DNA of 64,000 bases from Oribacterium sp. P6A1 (GTDB lineage: Bacteria; Bacillota; Clostridia; Lachnospirales; Lachnospiraceae), in contig NZ_JNKO01000014.1 in assembly GCF_000702885.1 (NCBI RefSeq), forward strand, positions 1 to 64,000, read 5' to 3'. Of this stretch, positions 10,314-20,700 are shown piece after piece (within the stretch, counting starts at the first letter, position 1; each line of letters starts with the position of its first letter). Position numbers and translations under genes: made by a program. A model generated the notes under the pieces. That model did no database searches. It was given only the letters and a program-made list of their open reading frames with translations, and was not told the DNA's origin.

Positions 10314-12149
10314 ATGCGCCTACTTCCCAAAAAAGGAAACATGAATGAACGTATAGATACAGTGCTTCATAAATTTCGTTCAAGAATGACATCATATCCC
10401 CCGGGTATGTGTCCTCTTACTCTGTACCGTTCACTTCTCCATATTTCCATGAATCAGTCCTGCGGAAAATGCATCCCCTGCAGAGACGGTCTCCATGAAG
10501 TGGACCGGCTGTTAAAAAGCATCATAAACGGCGATGCCTCAAGAGATTCCCTGTCAGAACTCGAAAAAAAATGTCTGATGATCGAAGAAACCTCCGACTG
10601 TGCCGTAGGCGCTTCGGGAGCGAGACTCATTCTTGACTCGCTTAAGGACTTTTCAGACGAGTACGAAAGCCATATCGAGAAAAAACGCTGTGTGGAAAAT
10701 ACAGTTCAGACTATTCCCTGTATAACTCTCTGTCCCGCCCATGTGGATGTCCCGGGATACATAGCACACATAAAAGAAGGTAACATGGCAGATGCCATAA
10801 AGGTGATACGTGACAGAAATCCATTCCCCACAGCCTGTGCCTACATATGCGAGCATCCCTGTGAAAATAAATGCAGAAGATCACTGATTGACGCCCCTTT
10901 AAATATAAGAGGGCTTAAAAAGTATGCTGTTGACAATGTTTCCGCCGACAGTGTACCCACGCCCCGGAGAAATGTCAGCACCGGAAAAAAAGTGGCCATC
11001 ATAGGCGGCGGTCCCGGAGGACTTACTGCTGCATATTTTCTTTCTCTTATGGGACATGAAGCCGATATTTACGAGGAACATGAAAAGCTTGGAGGGATGC
11101 TCAGATACGGAATCCCGGAATACAGACTTCCTAAAGACAAACTGGACTCTGATATAAACGCCATACTGTCTGCCGGTGATATAAAGGTCTTTACAGGTAC
11201 AAAAATCGGAAGAGATATTCCCTTTGAAAAGCTTAAAAAGGATTATGATGCCGTATATATAGGTATAGGAGCACAGCTTGGAAATCGTATGCCCATGGAA
11301 AACCATGATGCAGAGGGGGTTATACCTGCTGCTGATTTTCTTCAGAAAGTGGCAAGGGGCGATTCCATGGATCTCAGCGGAAAAAAAGTGGTGATCATAG
11401 GCGGCGGAAATGTGGCTATGGATGCCGCAAGAACAGTTGTGAGACTTAATGCAGAAACTGTCCATGTGTTTACAAGAAAAAGAGACGACTATACAGCACT
11501 TGAAAGTGAGATGGAATCAGCCATGCAGGAAGGTGTGAGATTCCGTACTCTGTTAAGCTTTCTGCATATAGAAACAAACCCGGATACAGGGGCTGTTCAG
11601 GCTGTGTGGCTGCAGCCCGAAATCGTAAATACCTATGACGACTTCGGCTTTGTGACCACCGAACATTCAAGTAACTATCCTTATCGTTTCAAGTGTGATC
11701 TCCTTATTCTGGGGGTAGGTCAGAGAAGCGACAGCGAAGCCTTTTCGGAAGCAGGCGTACCTGTACAAAGAGGCAGGATACAGGCATCGGAAGCCTGCAT
11801 AGTACAGGGGATGGATGGAGTCTTTTCCGGAGGGGACTGTGTCACAGGACCTTCCACTGCCATAAGAGCCATCGCTGCCGGTCAGGTTGCCGCCATAAAC
11901 ATTGACGAATATCTGGGATACCACCATAAGATTAGTCTTGAGACAGATATCCCTCCTGCATATCCCAATCCCTGTATCCCCACAGGAAGAGCAGAGATTG
12001 AAGAAAAAGATCCCTTTGAGAGAAGAACCAATTTTGATTTTGTAGAACTGCCCATGACTTATGAAGAGGCCATGAGAGAATCCGGAAGGTGTCTCCGATG
12101 CGATCATTATGGCTGCGGTTCGATGGAAGGAGGCCGGGGAGATAAATGA
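10314..12149 (+). CDS. Formate dehydrogenase-associated FAD/Fe-S electron-transfer subunit (NuoF C-terminal + GltD-like)
   Basis: 611 residues behind AAAGGAGG. Three parts: residues 20-120 match the C-terminal 4Fe-4S domain of NuoF/HndC-type subunits (SCGKCIPCRDG, then DCAVGAS); residues 135-205 match the DPYD/GltD N-terminal helical Fe-S domain (CITLCPAHVDVPGYI, CEHPCENKCRR); residues 220-550 are an FAD/NAD(P) two-Rossmann reductase (IIGGGPGGLTAAYFL and VVIIGGGNVAMDAARTV). The tail has CLRCDHYGC. The FMN-binding core of NuoF is missing. It should pass electrons between NAD(P)H (or ferredoxin) and the catalytic subunit, whose gene overlaps by 4 bp (ATGA). Which pyridine nucleotide is used is unknown. 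Confidence 0.85.
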   Translation: MRLLPKKGNMNERIDTVLHKFRSRMTSYPPGMCPLTLYRSLLHISMNQSCGKCIPCRDGLHEVDRLLKSIINGDASRDSLSELEKKCLMIEETSDCAVGASGARLILDSLKDFSDEYESHIEKKRCVENTVQTIPCITLCPAHVDVPGYIAHIKEGNMADAIKVIRDRNPFPTACAYICEHPCENKCRRSLIDAPLNIRGLKKYAVDNVSADSVPTPRRNVSTGKKVAIIGGGPGGLTAAYFLSLMGHEADIYEEHEKLGGMLRYGIPEYRLPKDKLDSDINAILSAGDIKVFTGTKIGRDIPFEKLKKDYDAVYIGIGAQLGNRMPMENHDAEGVIPAADFLQKVARGDSMDLSGKKVVIIGGGNVAMDAARTVVRLNAETVHVFTRKRDDYTALESEMESAMQEGVRFRTLLSFLHIETNPDTGAVQAVWLQPEIVNTYDDFGFVTTEHSSNYPYRFKCDLLILGVGQRSDSEAFSEAGVPVQRGRIQASEACIVQGMDGVFSGGDCVTGPSTAIRAIAAGQVAAINIDEYLGYHHKISLETDIPPAYPNPCIPTGRAEIEEKDPFERRTNFDFVELPMTYEEAMRESGRCLRCDHYGCGSMEGGRGDK

Positions 12150-14854
12150 TTGATGTTACCATCAACGGAAAAACCTGTTCAGGTAATGAAGGCTCTACCA
12201 TACTTGAAATCGCCCGTGACAACGGAATATTTATTCCTACTCTTTGTTTTCTTGAAGGTGTAAGCGATATAGGCTCCTGCAGGATGTGTATGGTGGAATG
12301 CGAAGGATATGAGATGCTCCTTGCCGCCTGCAGAACTAAAATAAAAGAGGGCATGGTCATAAGAACCGAATCAGAGAAGATTAACTCCTACAGAAAAGCC
12401 ATGCTGGAACTTATCCTGTCCAATCATAAAACCGACTGTATGAGCTGCCCTTCCAACGGAGCCTGTGAGCTTCAGACTCTTTGCAACAGGTATGAGGTGA
12501 GCCATGCCCTTTCACCGGGTACGAGAGTCGCCATGGATATGAAGCTTCCTGTTCTTAGGGAACACCCATTCATAGATTATGATCCGGGAAAATGCATACA
12601 TTGCCAGAGATGCATCAATGCCTGCCACCGTATAGCCTGCAACGGTACACTGAAAAGCGACAGGCTGGGAAGTTTTCATATAGTCAATGCTCCTTTTGGA
12701 AAAGATTATAAGGAATCCGGATGTGAATCCTGCGGAAATTGTGTAAGTGTATGTCCAACGGGGGCTCTTACTTTAAAAAAGGAAAATGACTACAGAAACT
12801 GGGAAGTAACAAAGGTTCTTACCACCTGTCCGCACTGCGCCACAGGATGCCAGTTATATCTCATTGTAAAAGACGGGAAGATCGTAAACGTGGAGGCAGC
12901 CTCAGGCCCTTCCAATCATAAAAGACTATGCGTAAAGGGCAGAAGCGGAAGCTTTGAATTTGTACATTCAAAGGACAGACTAACTAAGCCTCTGATAAAA
13001 GACCGGGTTACGGGAGTCTTCAGAGAAGCATCCTGGGAAGAAGCCATTTCCTATACGGCTCAAAGATTCATGTCAATTAAAGAAAGTTTTGGAAGCGAAG
13101 CTTTGGCCGGCTTTGCCTGCTCACGATCCGCAAATGAAGACATTTACATGGTGCAAAAGATGGTCCGCACCTGTTTTGGCACCAATAACACAGATAACTG
13201 CGCAAGAGTCTGTCATTCCGCCTCAGTCGCAGGTCTCGCAAAAACCCTTGGATCAGGAGCCATGACAAATCCCATCAGGGATATCACTGCGGATGTGGAC
13301 TGTATTCTCCTTGTGGGCTCAAATCCGGAAGAAGCCCATCCTGTTGTGGGTATGCAGATCCGGAAAGCCGTAAAAAACGGAACCAGACTCATAGTGGTGG
13401 ACCCCAGAGATATAGGTCTTTCGTCCCTTGCGGATATACATCTGAAGCTTCGCCCCGGCACAAATGTAGCTTTTGCCAACGGCATGATGCATGTGATGAT
13501 AAAGGAAGATCTTATAGATCATGAATACATAAAAGAACATGCCGAGGGCTTCAATGAGCTTAAGACACTTGTGGAGAAGTATACTCCCGAAAAAGTTGCA
13601 GAGATCTGTCATATAGATCCCGATAAGCTTAAAGAGGCTGCCAGAATGTATGCCACCGCAAAAAAAGCCCCTATCATCTACTGTCTCGGAGTTACCGAAC
13701 ACTCTACAGGCACGGAAGGTGTCATGAGCATGTCAAATATGGCTGTCATCACAGGTAAGATAGGAAGAAGCGGCTGTGGTGTGAACCCTTTGAGGGGTCA
13801 GAACAATGTTCAGGGCGCCTGTGACATGGGTGCCATGCCCACAGACTATCCCGGTTATCAGAAGGTTGATAATGAAGAAGTCCGGAAAAAATTCGAAAAA
13901 GCCTGGGGCGTTGACCTGAATCCTGTTCCTGGCCTTAAGGCTACTGATGTTTTCCCTGCCGCTATAGAAGGAAAGATAAAGGGGCTTTATATCTGCGGTG
14001 AGGATCCAATAGTTTCGGATCCCGACACTCACCATATCATAAAAGCCCTGGAGAGTCTTGATTTCCTGGTGGTGCAGGACCTCTTCATGACAAAGACCGC
14101 GGAGTACGCAGATGTGATACTTCCCGGAATAAGCTATGCAGAGAAGGAAGGAACCTTTACGAACACGGAACGCCGGGTACAAAGAATACGAAAGGCTGTC
14201 ACTCTGGATGGTGATATGCGCCCGGACACAGACATTATCACAGACCTTATGAACGCCATGGGGTATAAGCAGCCTTACCTTACTCCGGCAGAAATCATGG
14301 ATGAAATAGCTTCCGTCACTCCAAGCTTCCATGGAATTTCTCATGAACGACTTGACAGAGGCGAGAGTCTTCAGTGGCCATGCCCGGATAAGGACCACCC
14401 CGGAACTCCCATCATGCATACAGGACATCCCGCAAGAGGAAAAGCCCTGCTTTATCCTGCGGAATTTAAAGAATCCCGGGAACTTCCCGATGAGGAGTAC
14501 CCGTTTATACTAAGCACCGGCCGCATACTTTACCATTACAATGCTGGCGCCATGACAAAACGGACCCCCGGACTTATGGATATCTCCGGGGAAGGCTTCA
14601 TAGAAATAAACTTTAAGGATGCCGACAGACTGGGAATTAAAAAAGGTGACAGGATAACTGTCAGGAGCAGAAGAGGTGAGATAACAGCCACAGCTCATGT
14701 GGGAAGAAAGGTTTCGGAAGGCGAAACCTGGATGCCTTTCCATTTTCCGGATTCTCCTGTAAATGTTCTCACAAATGCTGCACTAGACGAATTTGCAAGG
14801 ATACCTGAATACAAGGTCTGTGCTGTACAGCTGGTTTCGCATAATGAAAGCTGA
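12146..14854 (+). CDS. fdhA: Formate dehydrogenase catalytic subunit (cysteine type, NuoG-like N-terminus)
   Basis: 902 residues. The N-terminus carries a 2Fe-2S domain (CFLEGVSDIGSCRMCMVEC), a His-Cys 4Fe-4S site (NHKTDCMSCPSNGACELQTLC), and a double 4Fe-4S ferredoxin domain (CIHCQRCINACH; CESCGNCVSVCP). The molybdopterin oxidoreductase part begins at CPHCATGC near residue 230. The metal-ligand position is Cys356 in CARVCHSASVAGL, encoded by TGT, so this is not a selenocysteine enzyme. It oxidises formate or reduces CO2 using a bis-MGD Mo/W centre. The C-terminal MGD-binding domain (FILSTGRILYHYNAG, ending near residue 895) is complete. Downstream MobA could supply the MGD cofactor. Confidence 0.9.
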   Translation: MIDVTINGKTCSGNEGSTILEIARDNGIFIPTLCFLEGVSDIGSCRMCMVECEGYEMLLAACRTKIKEGMVIRTESEKINSYRKAMLELILSNHKTDCMSCPSNGACELQTLCNRYEVSHALSPGTRVAMDMKLPVLREHPFIDYDPGKCIHCQRCINACHRIACNGTLKSDRLGSFHIVNAPFGKDYKESGCESCGNCVSVCPTGALTLKKENDYRNWEVTKVLTTCPHCATGCQLYLIVKDGKIVNVEAASGPSNHKRLCVKGRSGSFEFVHSKDRLTKPLIKDRVTGVFREASWEEAISYTAQRFMSIKESFGSEALAGFACSRSANEDIYMVQKMVRTCFGTNNTDNCARVCHSASVAGLAKTLGSGAMTNPIRDITADVDCILLVGSNPEEAHPVVGMQIRKAVKNGTRLIVVDPRDIGLSSLADIHLKLRPGTNVAFANGMMHVMIKEDLIDHEYIKEHAEGFNELKTLVEKYTPEKVAEICHIDPDKLKEAARMYATAKKAPIIYCLGVTEHSTGTEGVMSMSNMAVITGKIGRSGCGVNPLRGQNNVQGACDMGAMPTDYPGYQKVDNEEVRKKFEKAWGVDLNPVPGLKATDVFPAAIEGKIKGLYICGEDPIVSDPDTHHIIKALESLDFLVVQDLFMTKTAEYADVILPGISYAEKEGTFTNTERRVQRIRKAVTLDGDMRPDTDIITDLMNAMGYKQPYLTPAEIMDEIASVTPSFHGISHERLDRGESLQWPCPDKDHPGTPIMHTGHPARGKALLYPAEFKESRELPDEEYPFILSTGRILYHYNAGAMTKRTPGLMDISGEGFIEINFKDADRLGIKKGDRITVRSRRGEITATAHVGRKVSEGETWMPFHFPDSPVNVLTNAALDEFARIPEYKVCAVQLVSHNES

Positions 14855-14878
14855 GAAACCTATGAGGAGAAGTTATAT

Positions 14879-15472
14879 ATGAAAGACGGAATTATATTTT
14901 CAGAAAAAGAGAAAAAAGTGTCTCGTTCTGCCATCACACGTAAGATAGAACGGACAGGATATGAATGCATATTTATGATTCTATGTTGTGTTGCAGGAGT
15001 CCTGGCCAAAAAAGCCATTAACCCCGCAGCCAATATGATGACTGACTTTCTTCATATTCCCGGAGGAATATCCACAGCCCTGTCACTCATGTTTCTTGTT
15101 ATGGGAGCAGGCCTCACAAACGGCAGATGGAATGCGGGAATCATGGGACTTGTTCAGGGAATCAGTGCACTTTTGATGGGCTCCGTGGGAAGCATGGGAG
15201 TTCTTATCCCTGTAGCCTATTTCATTCCCGGTGTTGTAATTGACCTGATGATGCTGCTTCCCCTTAAAACTCCTTCCGGAATGAGAGTGAAAGCATTCCT
15301 TGCAAATCTTGCATCATCATTATCAGCAGCTTTATTTGCGGATGTAATGGTCTTTCACCTTCCTTTAAACGTTCTTACTGTTTATATCCTTGTGGCAGCC
15401 CTGTCGGGAGCTGTATGCGGATATGCTGCGGGAGAAGTTATTAACCTGACCCATGGAGATAAAAATGAATAA
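14879..15472 (+). CDS. ECF-transporter S-component-like membrane protein
   Basis: 197 residues behind AGGAGAAG. A basic N-terminus is followed by about five to six hydrophobic helices with Gly/Ala/Met-rich faces (for example ALSLMFLVMGAGLTNGRWNAGIMGLVQGISALLMG), the look of substrate-binding S-components of energy-coupling-factor transporters (the YkoE/ThiT-like size class). No ECF ATPase or T-component is next to it, which fits group II ECF systems that share a distant module. Its place between fdhA and mobA suggests import of something needed for the molybdo-enzyme, but that is inference from context only. Confidence 0.6.
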   Translation: MKDGIIFSEKEKKVSRSAITRKIERTGYECIFMILCCVAGVLAKKAINPAANMMTDFLHIPGGISTALSLMFLVMGAGLTNGRWNAGIMGLVQGISALLMGSVGSMGVLIPVAYFIPGVVIDLMMLLPLKTPSGMRVKAFLANLASSLSAALFADVMVFHLPLNVLTVYILVAALSGAVCGYAAGEVINLTHGDKNE

Positions 15473-15905
15473 AAAAATAAAATTTATCCTGGCGGGGCTC
15501 ATTCTGGGCCTCGCCATAGTAACGGGAATCGTTTCAGCCATATATCTTAAGGGGCGAAAAAGCATCCCCGAAAATCAGATATCCCTTACTGTTAATTCCG
15601 AGGAAAAATTTATATCTCTTTCGGATTTTAAGTTTTCTAAAGTAAGTGAAGATATATCAAACAAAAAGGGAGAAACAAAACATATCGAAGGTGATGGGGT
15701 ACTAATCAAAGATATCATAGGTTCCGTTTCTTTTTCCGATATCACTGTTATATCAGATGATGAATACAGAGCATCCCTTGGTCCGGATGACATGGAAAAC
15801 GCCTGGCTGCTGCTTGATGAAGGAACTGCGAGACTGATCGTAAAAGGAGATAAAAACTCGAAACGTGATGTGAAGAATGTTGTAAGGATAGAAGTCAATG
15901 AATGA
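15465..15905 (+). CDS. Small exported protein with molybdopterin-binding (SUOX-like) fold
   Basis: 146 residues from an ATG with GGAG 6-7 nt upstream; overlaps the preceding gene by 8 bp and mobA by 8 bp. A signal anchor (residues 5-26) precedes a domain with DGVLIKDIIGS, ITVISDDEYRASLGPDDMENAWLLLDEGTARLIVKGDKNSKRDVKNVVRIEV. The pattern of GVLLKDIL, VTV.S.D.Y, AWLL, LRLVVPGDK..KR.VKN..KIEV is that of the oxidoreductase molybdopterin-binding domain (PF00174), here in a single minimal copy. The Cys ligand of sulfite oxidases is not visible. It may bind a pterin or assist the dehydrogenase; function unknown. Confidence 0.65.
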   Translation: MNKKIKFILAGLILGLAIVTGIVSAIYLKGRKSIPENQISLTVNSEEKFISLSDFKFSKVSEDISNKKGETKHIEGDGVLIKDIIGSVSFSDITVISDDEYRASLGPDDMENAWLLLDEGTARLIVKGDKNSKRDVKNVVRIEVNE

Positions 15906-16464
15906 GTATTCTGCCATCATACTGGCCGGAGGAAAAAGCAGCCGCATGGGAAGAAAGAAGGCTGAGCTGTCTTTTTCCGGTAAAACCTTTTTGGAAATCC
16001 TCATAGATAAACTGGAAACTCTCGGGATAAGGGATATCCTTCTTTCAGGATACGAATGCAGTGATAACAGAGTAAGAAGTGTCTACGATATCTGTAAAAA
16101 CAAAGGCCCCATTGGAGGAGTCCATGCCTGCCTAAAGGAAATTAAGTATCCCCATGCCCTGGTCCTTGCGGAGGATGCCCCTTTTATCCCCGAAGAATTT
16201 CTGAAAAGACTGATAAAATGCCACAGTGAAGGTCAACAGCAGATAACCGTTACGGTCTGTAACGGAAACCTGCAGCCTCTTGTGGGAATTTATGACAAAT
16301 GTCTATACGAAAAATGCGAAAAACTGCTTTCTGAAGAAAAAGCGAACCTCAGAAAACTGATACTGTCAGCTCCGCACAAAGAAGTTTCCTTCACAGGAGA
16401 TGAGCTTCTGATACGGGGCTGCAACACTGTAGAAGAATTTGAACGTATGTCTCTCCTTAGATGA
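15898..16464 (+). CDS. mobA: Molybdenum cofactor guanylyltransferase
   Basis: 188 residues starting within the end of the previous gene (8-bp overlap). The N-terminal LAGGKSSRMGRKKAELSF is the GTP-binding signature of MobA; VLAEDAPFI near residue 88 holds the metal-binding Asp but with Glu in place of the usual Cys/Gly before it; QPLVGIYDK near residue 120 is also conserved. MobA joins GMP to molybdopterin to make MGD, the form used by the formate dehydrogenase encoded upstream. Last gene of the run; a terminator follows at 16489. Confidence 0.85.
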   Translation: MNEYSAIILAGGKSSRMGRKKAELSFSGKTFLEILIDKLETLGIRDILLSGYECSDNRVRSVYDICKNKGPIGGVHACLKEIKYPHALVLAEDAPFIPEEFLKRLIKCHSEGQQQITVTVCNGNLQPLVGIYDKCLYEKCEKLLSEEKANLRKLILSAPHKEVSFTGDELLIRGCNTVEEFERMSLLR

Positions 16465-16488
16465 TCATGTAGCAGTACTTCCTTATTT

Positions 16489-16531
16489 CCGAAGAGTTCC
16501 GGGTGATACCGGGAATCCTTCGGATCTTTTT
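16489..16531 (+). terminator. Terminator of the formate dehydrogenase operon
   Basis: CCGAAG(AGTT)CCGGG and CCGGG(AATC)CTTCGG form an interrupted stem of about 11-15 bp with a short loop, followed by ATCTTTTTG. It ends the run of genes from about 9304 or 10314. Confidence 0.7.
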
Positions 16532-16534
16532 GTT

Positions 16535-16698
16535 CATGACTTATCCTGTATCCTTTTTTACAACCATAAGAGCAGCAGGTATCAACAGTTTCCTCAAATG
16601 CAATGGCTTTGTTCTTAGTGTGCTGAGGAAATACAATGCCCACAAGCGCAATAACAGCCGCAACCGCAACTATGAATATAAGTTTATTTTCATACCAT
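16535..16698 (-). pseudogene. Possible small Cys-rich membrane protein, no usable start
   Basis: On the minus strand a frame reads WYENKLIFIVAVAAVIALVGIVFPQH, a single membrane helix, and then VDTCCSYGCKKGYRI, a Cys-rich patch, before running on through the terminator hairpin into mobA. The TM-plus-Cys layout recalls FeoB-associated or similar small membrane proteins. No ATG with a ribosome site opens the frame (an ATG nearby is in another frame and stops after two codons), so it is probably a broken gene or chance. I give it as a weak call for the otherwise empty 16465-16857 stretch. Confidence 0.25.
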
Positions 16699-16756
16699 AA
16701 ATTAAGGTTAAAGATTATTACATGCTTTTCTGACAGATTATTTACGGGCCTGTTCT

Positions 16757-16787
16757 TTGACGATTTTGACAAATCCGCATATATAAT
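16757..16787 (+). promoter_or_regulatory. Candidate promoter for the exported OYE gene
   Basis: TTGACG (16757-16762) and TATAAT (16782-16787) with 19 bp between, or TATATA at 17 bp. About 70 bp of leader precedes the ATG at 16858. Confidence 0.4.
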
Positions 16788-16857
16788 ACTTCAAATTTAT
16801 GTTAAAATTTACATTATATGGGTTTTGTTTGAGACTAAACGAAAGGAGTAGTAATAG

Positions 16858-19158
16858 ATGAGTATGGAAAAGAAGATCTCAAGACGAGATTTTTTGAAGG
16901 GTGGTGCTGCACTGGCTGCAACCACCGCAATTCTCGATTTAGCAGCATGTGCAAATGGAGAGACACCTCCTCCCGCAACTACAGCAGCTGCTGAAACTAA
17001 AGCAGCAGAGACTGAAGCCGCAGTGACCGAAGCTGCCACTGAAGCTGCAAAGGAAGAGGCTTCCAAGGCTGTTGAAACTGTGAAAGCTGTTGTTTCTGAA
17101 CTGAATCCTCAGGACTATGATTTCAGAAGTACAGATTCTGATCTTTCTGCTGTATTCAGTCCATGGAAGTTCGGAGGGCTTAACCTTACCCACCGCATGG
17201 TTAAGTCAGCAGCAGGTTCCGATACACAAAGGGGAAGTGTAGAGGAAGCTGTGGAGTACTATTCGGCATTTGCCAAGGGCGGAGTTGAGATGGTATGGGT
17301 TGAGGATTTCCTTGCCTTCGGAGAGAATTTCCCAAGCGGAAGAGCTGCGAAAATCGAGGATACTCATGTTAAGGAAGTTATCGAAGGGGTGCATGCAGCA
17401 GGCGGTTACATCGGATATCAATTAAGCTGCATGGGCAGATCCTTCAGCGGCTTTGATGCTGCCACAGCTCCTCAGTACGCATCGGCATTTGCAGAGCACC
17501 TTACTCTTGATGAAGTTAAAAAGGTTCAGGAGGATTTCATCAAGGGCGCCAAGAAGATGCAGGATCTCGGTTTTGATGCGGTTGAGATCAATGCAGCCGG
17601 AAACAACATCGGACAGGCCTTCTTCTCACGCCAAAGAAACCACAGAGATGATGAATACGGTCCTCAGAGCTTTGAGAACCGTGCACGTTTTGTCGGCGAG
17701 ATCATAAGCGGTATCAAGGAACTTTGCGGAAAGGATTTCCCTGTTCAGGTTCTTCTCAATGGTATCGAGGAGAATGACATCAATATAGGTGAGTCAGATC
17801 TTTCCACTACCGTTGAGGAAAACTGCAAGATCTGTAAGGCTCTTGAGGATTTCGGAGCCGATGCACTCCATGTGAGACTGGGAGTATTCCGCATGCATGT
17901 TTGCCAGTTCGCATCCGACCTTTACTTCACAGGAAACGGAATCATCGGTACCACAGCAAACGGTACCCGTTTCGATTTCTCGCGCCATTTCGAAGGAAAG
18001 CTTCTTGCAAACCACGATGCTTACGGCATGATGCTGAATGTTGCAAAGGAAATCAAGCAGGCTGTATCCATCCCTGTGGGAACAGTTACATGTATGAACC
18101 CGGCTTATGCTCCTAAGTTCTTTAACGACGCCATCGCTGACGGCATGTGCGACTTCTTCATCATGAACCGTCCTCTGACCGTTGATACCGAGTATGTAAA
18201 CAAGCTCCGTGAGAAGCGTCTTGACGAAATAGCACCATGCACACGCTGTATGCATTGTCACTTCGATTATGATGAAGAAGGCAAGATGTATGAGCATTGC
18301 CGCGTAAATGCAGCAACACAGAGAGCATGGCATGAGGATATGCCTGAAGGCGCCATCCCTGCACCTGCAGCTGAAAAGAAGAAGGTCATGGTCATCGGCG
18401 GCGGTCCTGCAGGACTTGAGGCTGCACGTATCGCGGCAGAACGCGGTCATGATGTAACACTTTATGAAAAAAACGGTTTCCTGGGCGGACTTCTCACATT
18501 TGCAGAAGCCATAAAGGGACCTCATGAGAACCTGGGAGATCTCAGAAATTATCTTATCCGCCAGCAGGAATTAAAGGGTGTCAATGTCAAGACCGGAACA
18601 GAAGTCTCTGCTGATCTCATTAAGTCCGAGGCTCCTGACTATGTGGTTCTCGCTACAGGCGGTAAGAGACCCGAGCTTGAACTGAGTTCTAAAGGTGCCA
18701 CCAGTGTTATCTCCATCGACGATATCGCTTCAGCTGATATCGGTGACAATGTCACCATCATCGGAGGAAACGCACAGGCTGTTGATGCCGCTCAGTATCT
18801 GATTGCTCACGGCAAACACGTTACCATGGTTTCACCTGAAGGCAAGGAACGTCTTGACAAGGGTCAGTCCCAGTGGGTTAAGCAGTTCACCATTCCTATG
18901 CTTTACGCAAACGGTATGCGTTTATGGCCAAATGCTTCCATCAAGGAGGTTCAGGACGGCAGGATAGTTATCGACGGTGAGACAGGATGTGATGTGGTCA
19001 TCGACTGCAACACGGTTATCGATGCCCGTGATATGCTTCCGAACACATCACTCCTGGATGGTCTCGATATACCTTCTATCGCTGTAGGTGACTGCAACAA
19101 GCCTTTCAACATCGCCGAAGCCATAGCAGCAGGAAATATCGCTGCAAGAAAGATCTGA
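16858..19158 (+). CDS. Tat-exported lipoprotein: Old Yellow Enzyme/FAD reductase fusion
   Basis: 766 residues behind AAAGGAG. The N-terminus has a twin-arginine signal (SRRDFLKGG) and a lipobox-like LAAC at about residue 31, then a Thr/Ala/Glu linker to about residue 80. Residues 95-450 are an FMN TIM barrel of the 2,4-dienoyl-CoA reductase/BaiCD group. CTRCMHC plus a Cys near 481 is the 4Fe-4S site. Residues 500-766 are a GltD-like FAD domain (VIGGGPAGLEAARI). Odd points: the barrel reads EINAAGNNIGQAF where relatives have EIHxAHGYL, so both active-site His are replaced; and the second Rossmann motif is IIGGNAQAVDAA, with Asn for a conserved Gly. An exported reductase would not meet cytosolic NAD(P)H. 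Substrate unknown. Confidence 0.8.
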   Translation: MSMEKKISRRDFLKGGAALAATTAILDLAACANGETPPPATTAAAETKAAETEAAVTEAATEAAKEEASKAVETVKAVVSELNPQDYDFRSTDSDLSAVFSPWKFGGLNLTHRMVKSAAGSDTQRGSVEEAVEYYSAFAKGGVEMVWVEDFLAFGENFPSGRAAKIEDTHVKEVIEGVHAAGGYIGYQLSCMGRSFSGFDAATAPQYASAFAEHLTLDEVKKVQEDFIKGAKKMQDLGFDAVEINAAGNNIGQAFFSRQRNHRDDEYGPQSFENRARFVGEIISGIKELCGKDFPVQVLLNGIEENDINIGESDLSTTVEENCKICKALEDFGADALHVRLGVFRMHVCQFASDLYFTGNGIIGTTANGTRFDFSRHFEGKLLANHDAYGMMLNVAKEIKQAVSIPVGTVTCMNPAYAPKFFNDAIADGMCDFFIMNRPLTVDTEYVNKLREKRLDEIAPCTRCMHCHFDYDEEGKMYEHCRVNAATQRAWHEDMPEGAIPAPAAEKKKVMVIGGGPAGLEAARIAAERGHDVTLYEKNGFLGGLLTFAEAIKGPHENLGDLRNYLIRQQELKGVNVKTGTEVSADLIKSEAPDYVVLATGGKRPELELSSKGATSVISIDDIASADIGDNVTIIGGNAQAVDAAQYLIAHGKHVTMVSPEGKERLDKGQSQWVKQFTIPMLYANGMRLWPNASIKEVQDGRIVIDGETGCDVVIDCNTVIDARDMLPNTSLLDGLDIPSIAVGDCNKPFNIAEAIAAGNIAARKI

Positions 19159-19280
19159 TAAAACTGCCTGATTCACAGTGTTTCATCAGACCTTCCCGGG
19201 ATTTCAGGATTTTTAAAGAGAATACATGAGATCTGACAGATCAATTACAGAAATAAGCATATGTAATTGCTGCCATATTG

Positions 19281-19314
19281 CCCGGTGGAGCTCAGTCTCC
19301 ACCGGGATTTTTTA
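19281..19314 (+). terminator. Rho-independent terminator after the OYE gene
   Basis: A perfect 10-bp stem CCCGGTGGAG / CTCCACCGGG with CTCAGT loop and ATTTTTTA tail. Confidence 0.9.
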
Positions 19315-19320
19315 TTCGCG

Positions 19321-19414
19321 ATAAGGCCTTCACGCGTGCGTTGTGCTTGTGAAAACTCATCTGCATATCCCAATGTTCCATAATAAGGCCTTCACGCGTG
19401 CGCGTTGTGCTTGT
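19321..19414 (+). repeat. Two-copy 30-bp direct repeat
   Basis: ATAAGGCCTTCACGCGTGCG followed by TTGTGCTTGT occurs at 19321-19350 and again at 19383-19414, where CG is inserted before TTGTGC. The copies are 62 bp apart. They lie in a 438-bp gene-free stretch (19159-19596) whose remainder (19415-19596) shows nothing I can identify. Each copy contains the palindrome ACGCGT. Function unknown. Confidence 0.7.
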
Positions 19415-19596
19415 ACAATAGCATTTGGGAACTTTCATAGTTATTTAATTGAATAGCTGAAGCCTTCATTGTATACTCTATTTGCAATTTTTACACCGTT
19501 GGAATACGCCGGCGGTTTACTGCATAAGTCCAGGTATCAGGCGGCTTTGCAGACTCAGGTAACATATATGCTTATAGCAGCAAATTTTATATAAAA

Positions 19597-20700
19597 ATGG
19601 AAAATACACATATTACAGAAGAAATTCTGCCCGGAATCTACAGAGTTGATCTTTCAGACACCACTGTGGAACAGGGCGTAAGCAATATTCATATATTTAT
19701 CATCAAGGGACGGGATGACATCAACAACGGGCGCAGCCTCATGATAGACACAGGCTTCAGAAACGATGACTGCCTTCATAAGCTTTTGTCTGCTCTTGAA
19801 GAGCTCAACATCAGTACCGACACTCTTGACATTTTTCTCACTCACAGGCACCATGATCATTGCGGTCTCGCAGAGGCTTTTTCGAAAAAAGGTGCCCGTC
19901 TTTTCATGAATCCCACAGAGGAACGTCATCCCTATGACTGCCTTGCATACAGAGTAAGTCAAGAGTCTATTGATGCTCAGAAAAAGGTTCTCCATTCCGT
20001 GGGAATCACCCCTGAACGTACCCCTCAGGTCTGGAAGACCTTCATGGAAATATCCGACAGGGTACGGCATCATGGTGAATGGGTGCTTGCAATCTGGGGA
20101 TTTCCTTACACTGAGATCCATGAGGGTGACCGGTTCTGCTACGGGGATTATGAATTTGAAGCAACACCTTTAAAAGGACACACCTATGGTCAGATGGGAC
20201 TTATGGATCATGAAAAGAAGATCTTCTTCACTGCTGATCAGATAATTCATGATATTTCACCTATAGTTGCCACCACCTACCCGGATGAAGGGCTGCTCCT
20301 CAGCTTCTTTGACTCACTCCGTTATATAAAGGAGCATTGCTCTAACTGGACGGTCATTCCTTCCCATGGGGAAATTCTGTCCGATGTTCAAAGAGACGTT
20401 GATAAAACTGTATTCAGTTATCTTAATAAGGCAACTGTGGTAAGGGACATTTTGAAAGCAAAAGCCATGAGAACAAAAGAAATCTCAGCATATGACCCTG
20501 ACGTAACATCGGAAATGACCATTCAGGAAGTTGCCGAAATTATTTATAATGTAAAGCATATGCCTGAAAACGAGGGTGAATTTTTCATCTACAAGATGTT
20601 CATGACAAAAACCTACAGCCTTCTCGAATATCTCTATGACCTGGGTTTTGTCAGAAGAGAAGATAGAGAAGGTACATTCTATTGGAGTTACACAAACTGA
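19597..20700 (+). CDS. MBL-fold metallo-hydrolase
   Basis: 367 residues. The metal-binding motif THRHHDHCG (about residues 80-88) is the HxHxDH signature; a further His is in KGHTYGQMG near residue 193, an Asp in FFTADQIIHD near residue 208, and the last His in VIPSHGE near residue 255. The C-terminal 90 residues look like a winged-helix tail, as in the YcbL/LACTB2-like group. It probably hydrolyses a thioester or phosphoester; substrate unknown. No Shine-Dalgarno is seen before the ATG, and no other in-frame start exists nearby. The next gene begins 4 nt after its stop. Confidence 0.8.
   Translation: MENTHITEEILPGIYRVDLSDTTVEQGVSNIHIFIIKGRDDINNGRSLMIDTGFRNDDCLHKLLSALEELNISTDTLDIFLTHRHHDHCGLAEAFSKKGARLFMNPTEERHPYDCLAYRVSQESIDAQKKVLHSVGITPERTPQVWKTFMEISDRVRHHGEWVLAIWGFPYTEIHEGDRFCYGDYEFEATPLKGHTYGQMGLMDHEKKIFFTADQIIHDISPIVATTYPDEGLLLSFFDSLRYIKEHCSNWTVIPSHGEILSDVQRDVDKTVFSYLNKATVVRDILKAKAMRTKEISAYDPDVTSEMTIQEVAEIIYNVKHMPENEGEFFIYKMFMTKTYSLLEYLYDLGFVRREDREGTFYWSYTN

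Follow-up and report, generated by a model that had tools for sequence, protein, structure and literature searches.

The window analysed here is the whole 64,000-nucleotide stretch at positions 1 to 64,000 of contig NZ_JNKO01000014.1 from Oribacterium sp. P6A1, an anaerobe related to gut and rumen species. One gene in it encodes an oxidoreductase related to the cytoplasmic "Old Yellow" enzymes (OYEs) that would be anchored at the cell surface. An earlier note, made from the sequence of the window, had described a single protein with a twin-arginine signal, a lipobox-like cysteine, a linker, a flavin mononucleotide (FMN) barrel, a 4Fe-4S site and a flavin adenine dinucleotide (FAD) domain; Pfam and the sequence bear out this architecture, whose features are the following (ORF, open reading frame; Tat, twin-arginine translocation).

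16858..19158, + strand: whole gene, predicted Tat-exported OYE / Fe-S / FAD oxidoreductase of 766 amino acids (single ATG ORF and Pfam)
16858..16950, + strand: twin-arginine signal peptide (R9 R10) with lipobox-like LAAC up to Cys31 (Pfam TAT_signal 6-24, sequence)
16951..17142, + strand: Ala/Thr/Glu low-complexity linker (sequence)
17143..18222, + strand: OYE (Oxidored_FMN) barrel, end approximate (Pfam 99-300, alignment columns)
17203-17205, + strand: Lys116 (barrel alignment column)
17584-17607, + strand: EINAAGNN, residues 243-250 (barrel alignment column)
17752-17754, + strand: Leu299, at the position of the flavin Arg (barrel alignment column)
17875-17877, + strand: Arg340 (barrel alignment column)
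18238..18300, + strand: four-Cys 4Fe-4S site, CX2CX2CX13C (alignment columns)
18370..19155, + strand: FAD and second Rossmann domain, with the FAD motif GGGPAG intact and a KGPHEN loop containing Lys553 and His556 (Pfam, alignment)
18763-18780, + strand: GGNAQA, residues 636-641 (second Rossmann motif)
18832-18834, + strand: Ser659, at the presumed position of the acidic NAD-ribose residue (alignment column)
19281..19306, + strand: intrinsic-terminator-like hairpin, then a T run (hairpin scan)

The N-terminus carries an SRRDFLK motif, a hydrophobic stretch and LAAC at residues 28-31, which fits the lipobox consensus. Pfam matches TAT_signal at residues 6-24 (29.8 bits against a cut-off of 22.7), Oxidored_FMN (PF00724) at residues 99-300 (88.3 against 27), the domain that places the protein in the OYE superfamily, and Pyr_redox_2 at residues 508-736 (73.4 against 26.1). 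The linker after Cys31, about 60 residues rich in Ala, Thr and Glu, resembles linkers in other exported proteins of the same genome. With its twin-arginine motif, its lipobox cysteine and the Tat genes of the genome (TatC and a TatA/B-family gene), the protein is a predicted Tat lipoprotein; by Pfam it has the export signal of extracytosolic flavin-dependent respiratory reductases.

No NCBIfam model reaches its cut-off for this protein or for its exported relative L023 (best score 260.9 bits against 793). The top match of the window protein is the long form of BilR (NF045599), at 260.3 bits far below its cut-off of 750; mycofactocin OYE_2 (248.6 against 793) and BaiCD (239.9 against 825) also fall below. 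The gene is under strong purifying selection, as the ratio of nonsynonymous to synonymous substitution rates (dN/dS) is 0.029 against relative L026 and 0.048 against L039; for three further relatives dS is saturated and gives no ratio. The unusual residues described below are thus maintained, and a decaying gene is ruled out. The gene had also been credited with its own promoter and terminator. The terminator stands, a hairpin of 10 pairs (8 of them G-C) followed by a T run, but no promoter was found upstream of the gene: a scan of 16400-19700 gave two promoter-like sites, both downstream, against 5.0 expected by chance.

The exported clade

Relatives were collected by a scan that picked proteins by the pattern R[DTE]DEYG[PN]Q or [IFL]NG[IV]EEND, with 80 of 179 relatives listed. 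Conservation of residues 263-270 and 300-307 is therefore partly by construction, since the patterns selected them; residues 116, 245, 299, 340, 556 and 659 and the signal lay outside the patterns. The 84 exported rows of the alignment comprise the window protein, L023, 78 of the 80 loci, L142-L144 and L163. Two truncated sequences (L058, L105), two same-genus copies at 95-96% (L024, L025) and L021, which looks the same as L090, were left out. The 30 cytosolic rows are 29 proteins found with the window protein as query in its phylum, together with FadH; 2-naphthoyl-CoA reductase (NCR), trimethylamine dehydrogenase (TMADH) and histamine dehydrogenase (HADH) are outside the tree. In this tree, which is rooted at its midpoint and has many long end branches, a single branch splits the 84 exported rows from the 30 cytosolic rows with a support of 100 in the Shimodaira-Hasegawa-like approximate likelihood ratio test (SH-aLRT). 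The family tree of exported against cytosolic proteins that the earlier note had proposed thus separates the two, and the 84 exported proteins are one group, distinct from the cytosolic OYE-FAD rows.

Tat export, also proposed from the window alone, agrees with the Tat genes of the genome and with a Tat-type signal predicted in 84/84 exported rows. The pattern R[RK]x[FLIVM] finds 82 of these signals, including the Arg-Lys variant of L078; the signal of L096 directly precedes the aligned part and is in frame with it, and that of L028 lies in another frame before a stop. Pfam TAT_signal passes E 0.001 in 38/80 N-termini of exported relatives, and a permissive lipobox pattern matches 43/84 exported rows. 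A loose RR pattern flagged 3/29 cytosolic rows (L110, L148 and L154), none of them a signal by eye. In a Defluviitaleaceae metagenome-assembled genome (MAG), a TatA/B-family gene (L091:10388-10765) lies 36 bases downstream of the exported OYE gene.

The gene is patchily distributed. The 80 of 179 relatives listed include Bacillota (Oribacterium, Holdemania, uncultured Hungatella and many rumen MAGs), Eggerthellaceae and other Coriobacteriia (Gordonibacter, Slackia, Adlercreutzia, Raoultibacter) and one Anaerolineaceae MAG (Chloroflexota); Eggerthella lenta is not among them. The closest named relatives among the matches listed are in Oribacterium sp. C9 (96%) and Lachnospiraceae bacterium JC7 (95%). 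In the genome samples, where the best two or three candidates per genome were scored, 3/17 genomes of the genus match at 1e-50, the window's own included, and 3/299 of the family at 1e-60: the window's own, G298, which carries two exported copies, and G015, whose protein lacks a signal. The phylum sample gave 22/398 at 1e-40, four with exported-type proteins and 18 with a best score of at most 263 bits; the four exported-type genomes outside the window's own score 668-679 bits by phmmer. As to a mobile or phage origin, a plasmid search returned 309 records, all below 60% identity (at most 27.5% among the 15 listed), and the PHROGs match was a family of unknown function at 215 bits.

Flavin pocket and NAD(P)H site

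Standard OYEs arrange two histidines and one arginine around the FMN pyrimidine (PMC6502838). In the exported clade this arrangement is gone. The first-His position (N245 in the window protein) is Asn in 75/84 rows, Lys in 8 and His in 1, compared with His in 27/30 cytosolic rows; the second (G248) is His in 0/84 exported against 22/30 cytosolic rows. Both histidines together are seen in 0/84, so that the His pair (or His/Asn) of the OYE superfamily is absent, and the position of the flavin-contacting Arg (299) is Leu in 84/84 exported rows against Arg in 26/30 cytosolic ones. Where the window protein reads EINAAGNN, cytosolic relatives mostly read like EIHGAHGY. The replaced histidines and the GGNAQA motif pointed out in the earlier note are both real and shared by relatives; the barrel has, however, not merely lost residues, as another invariant set stands there. 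Lys116, Arg340 and His556 occur in 84/84 exported rows and in 0, 1 and 0 of the 30 cytosolic rows, and the combination K-L-R-H at 116, 299, 340 and 556 in 84/84 exported against 0/35 cytosolic rows. Gln188 and Arg438, which putatively bind FMN, are likewise conserved in 84/84. The flavin pocket of the exported clade looks rebuilt, with Lys116 and Arg340 as possible replacements for the positive charge that was lost. The 4Fe-4S cysteines are shared by both groups (Cys 461, 464, 467 and 481 in 84/84 exported rows and in 30, 29, 30 and 30 of the 30 cytosolic rows).

Unprecedented loss of the histidines is ruled out: NCR and the signal-less protein L146 lack both, and FadH reads MGSEGY. Because NCR lacks both, their loss does not expel the window protein from the OYE superfamily; because NCR is cytosolic and L146 carries no signal, the loss is not tied to export. 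L146 lacks the arginine as well (SINGGGAALV, with Asp at the Arg position), and also Lys116, Arg340 and His556. Another signal-less OYE-FAD protein, L145:1084-3183, has Asn and Cys in place of the two histidines, Leu in place of the flavin Arg and Arg at position 340, yet keeps both GAGLQG (GxGxxG) and an Asp at 659. It groups beside the exported clade with a support of 100 on a short branch, its own branch being long. This single row, a possible intermediate, suggests that the barrel changed first and that the NAD(P)H site was lost along with export. Among cytosolic relatives, L145 alone turned up with a partly rebuilt barrel; of six further relatives of L145, five were read, and these carry the Arg and the first His in 5/5 cases and the second His in 4/5.

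In the second Rossmann fold, the second-glycine position is Gly in 16/84 exported against 27/30 cytosolic rows, and the third is Ala in 82/84 exported where 28/30 cytosolic rows have Gly. Position 659 at the end of strand 2, which we take to be the acidic residue contacting the NAD ribose, is acidic in 0/84 exported rows (Ser in the window protein) against 28/30 cytosolic ones. No conserved basic residue follows it, the commonest being Lys at 663 in 28/84 exported rows. With GGNAQA and Ser659, the window protein departs from the NAD(P)H motif of the BaiCD, BilR and mycofactocin OYE-FAD reductases. The earlier note had read the broken motif as agreeing with another electron source. The loss of NAD-site hallmarks holds, but the idea that GGNAQA by itself proves loss of NAD(P)H use is weakened by the 16/84 exported rows that keep the second Gly, and the missing acid at 659 is the stronger sign. 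Taken together, these signs make the NAD(P)H site of the exported clade look lost. Continued use of NAD(P)H by the exported enzyme, for instance from lysed cells, would be in keeping with the retained Rossmann domain, with the 16 rows that hold the second Gly and with cytosolic relatives such as FadH that run on NADPH; we consider this very unlikely in view of the acid absent from all 84 rows, the lack of a conserved basic residue after it and the fusions to FMN_bind domains in relatives.

The best solved relative is NCR (PDB 6qkg; 189 bits by single sequence, 313 bits by profile), which has the same three-domain order, lacks both OYE histidines and reads GGNEIS at the second Rossmann motif. 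PMC6502838 reports that NAD(P)H is no donor of NCR, that the NADPH site is absent, that electrons enter at the FAD and that NCR retains of the three OYE residues the Arg alone. That cytosolic relatives use NAD(P)H, as the earlier note had assumed, is therefore not general, given a cytosolic NCR devoid of both His and of NAD(P)H use. The window protein shares with NCR the loss of both histidines and, as judged by sequence, of the NAD(P)H site. It differs in that NCR keeps the flavin Arg (R245; Leu in all exported rows and Leu299 here) and, in the alignment, an acidic residue where the window protein has Ser659. NCR acts on a CoA ester, with no export signal mentioned in the available part of PMC6502838; an aryl-CoA substrate for the window protein is unlikely, as it would put a CoA ester outside the cell. 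As NCR already provides a cytosolic precedent for both losses, that of the His pair and that of NAD(P)H use, the novelty lies in the exported clade, its own invariant residues and its FMN_bind fusions. FadH, the dienoyl-CoA reductase, has the same OYE / 4Fe-4S / FAD / Rossmann architecture and is NADPH-dependent (PMC6502838). It has no signal and keeps Arg214 where exported rows have Leu; the position of its Tyr166 is Asn in 71/84 exported and Tyr in 24/30 cytosolic rows. BilR, a gut OYE-FAD enzyme, carries at its catalytic positions the substrate-specific motif HGDR (PMC10769871), which is absent from the window protein.

Electron flow could in principle run the other way, as in TMADH and HADH, which pass electrons to electron-transfer flavoprotein (ETF) and bind ADP instead of FAD (PMC6502838). 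An exported dehydrogenase would oxidise an outside substrate and send electrons out through its FMN and Fe-S cluster. The two dehydrogenases have the architecture of the window protein and score 183-207 bits against the family profile, their CX2CX2C spacing (in the HADH alignment) recurs in 84/84 exported rows, and FMN_bind carriers may also accept electrons from oxidases (PMC8238504). We nevertheless hold this direction to be unlikely. The profile scores higher for 2-naphthoyl-CoA reductase (313 bits) and dienoyl-CoA reductase (273 bits); PMC8238504 names FMN_bind-linked reductions of fumarate, urocanate, N2O and organohalides; and an electron sink is more plausible for anaerobes. The second-His position, presumably the residue used by TMADH-type enzymes, is never His in the 84 exported rows.

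Electron supply and proposed function

An FMN_bind domain lies between signal and barrel in 17/84 exported rows (16 by architecture, L100 by eye); Pfam alone gives 13/80 N-termini of exported relatives. Its distribution needs 3 changes on the tree and may reflect several gains, or one gain and two losses. At L058, the adjacent gene, 68 bases downstream on the same strand, encodes an FMN_bind + FAD_binding_2 protein. The window genome encodes one ApbE, 22 FMN_bind domains and an rnf-like operon with an FMN_bind subunit (its other rnf genes named by eye). Several of its FMN_bind proteins have Tat or Sec lipoprotein signals and linkers like that of the window protein. These lipoproteins resemble the flavinylated fumarate-reductase-like enzymes (their FAD domains read by eye), which act on urocanate or fumarate, combine FMN_bind with FAD_binding_2, are exported and take in electrons at FMN_bind, as described in PMC8238504. 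The exported OYEs differ from them in their catalytic domain (PF00724 rather than PF00890) and in having FMN_bind in some relatives only. The fusions and the flavin electron-transfer genes of the genome hint at the different electron source that the earlier note had envisaged. On contig 11, the 504-residue product of L139:5268-6779 has four FMN_bind domains and is a candidate for carrying electrons over several flavins; multi-flavinylated proteins have been described as possible longer-distance carriers (PMC8238504).

Taken with the residue changes, these observations make it probable that the window protein belongs to a distinct clade of exported OYEs and acts as a Tat-exported lipoprotein reductase, working outside the cytosol on electrons fed by flavins and without NAD(P)H. 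FMN, Fe-S cluster and FAD would be loaded in the cytosol, and the folded protein would leave via the Tat system and be tethered outside the membrane by Cys31, where it would not use NAD(P)H. FMN_bind one-electron carriers on the outside, which would receive their flavin from ApbE and their electrons from a membrane donor such as Rnf, would reduce the FAD; from there electrons would reach the barrel FMN by way of the 4Fe-4S cluster, and this FMN would reduce an extracellular organic acceptor used as electron sink. In the relatives with FMN_bind, the carrier would be fused to the enzyme. The route from membrane donor through flavin carriers to FAD is plausible. It has a parallel in NCR, an enzyme of the same architecture into which single electrons can enter at the FAD with no need of NAD(P)H (PMC6502838). 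The signal, the domain order, the loss of NAD-site hallmarks, the altered flavin-site residues, the FMN_bind fusions of relatives and the flavin electron-transfer genes of the genome are read directly from the sequence; from there we infer the cofactor content, the electron path, the direction of reduction, the donor and a small organic substrate. The observation of the earlier note is confirmed and its interpretation partly supported, the "respiratory" role being one that we infer.

Several points weigh against this flavin-fed reductase. Pfam finds FMN_bind neither in the window protein nor in the seven window proteins scanned, so the donor would have to be a different protein, encoded away from this gene; extracytosolic flavin-dependent respiratory reductases have FMN_bind in the protein or in an adjacent gene, which the window locus lacks. 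The search for membrane donors proposed in the earlier note succeeded for the rnf-like operon and failed for quinol and cytochrome donors: MenA has no match in this draft genome (97.57% complete; control found in 9/14 genomes), and neither has Cytochrom_NNT (NrfH/NapC), whose control was found in 1/14 genomes. These two donors were set aside on that basis, other routes not having been searched. Among the 16 exported rows with the second Gly, 15 read GxGxxA, which is also an NADP-type motif, and L091 reads GxGxxG; FadH likewise lacks the acid at 659 and uses NADPH. The exported rows form one clade, so their counts reflect about one evolutionary event, and they were gathered by a sequence pattern. 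Finally, many relatives have a regulator gene next to the enzyme gene, and the window copy has none.

In those relatives, LysR (17), LuxR (18) or PucR-type (3) genes adjoin the exported OYE gene in 38/81 loci, taking the nearest ORF of at least 120 amino acids within 450 bases and one seed per class, with four representatives checked by Pfam. Counted among the 80 of 179 loci listed, 14/61 assemblies hold 2-4 copies. Adjacent regulators and multiple copies fit inducible enzymes with different, specific substrates. They fit less well with a surface reductase of metals or quinones, such as Fe(III) or humic quinones, that would serve no particular organic compound; the strictly conserved barrel residues also suggest a defined pocket. 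Surface tethering would suit such an enzyme, and flavinylated proteins have been tied to iron reduction and assimilation (PMC8238504), yet we regard it as quite unlikely.

The exported clade probably allows anaerobes to discard electrons onto extracellular compounds. In the gut and the rumen, anaerobes use dietary and host compounds as electron sinks, and their enzymes determine which of these are altered. A recent preprint on E. lenta confines the respiratory reductases that it sorts to two superfamilies, COG1053 and COG0243 (PMC13060105), a definition that would leave out exported OYE-type enzymes. Searches of the open PMC subset yielded no title about an exported OYE. We lean slightly towards the view that exported OYEs make up a third kind of terminal reductase in gut anaerobes, so far not counted, next to the FAD_binding_2 and molybdopterin classes. 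In this view, an OYE-FAD ancestor in the cytosol would have dropped its NAD(P)H site, swapped two His and the Arg for Lys116 and Arg340, been rewired to covalently flavinylated carriers (with fused FMN_bind in certain lineages) and, through duplication, come to act on many substrates. The clade also exemplifies an enzyme family whose move to the outside of the membrane seems to have gone along with loss of its NAD(P)H site.

Neighbouring genes and other observations

Upstream, 10314-16464 holds in a row a GltD/NuoF-like protein, a formate-dehydrogenase-alpha protein (861 bits against an NCBIfam cut-off of 666), two ORFs (14879-15472 and 15453-15905) without a Pfam or NCBIfam match, and a MobA-like protein. 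This looks like a molybdenum formate dehydrogenase operon; no link of the OYE gene to it was found, and no further test was made. The OYE gene is flanked by the MobA-like gene upstream and, directly downstream at 19597-20700, by a gene for a metallo-beta-lactamase-fold protein, which occupies the same place in L026 and L039. An identical 20-nucleotide repeat, ATAAGGCCTTCACGCGTGCG, follows the terminator at 19321-19340 and 19383-19402, both copies lying within 82 bases. At the start of the window, the ORF at 55-501 resembles, by eye, a transposase fragment.

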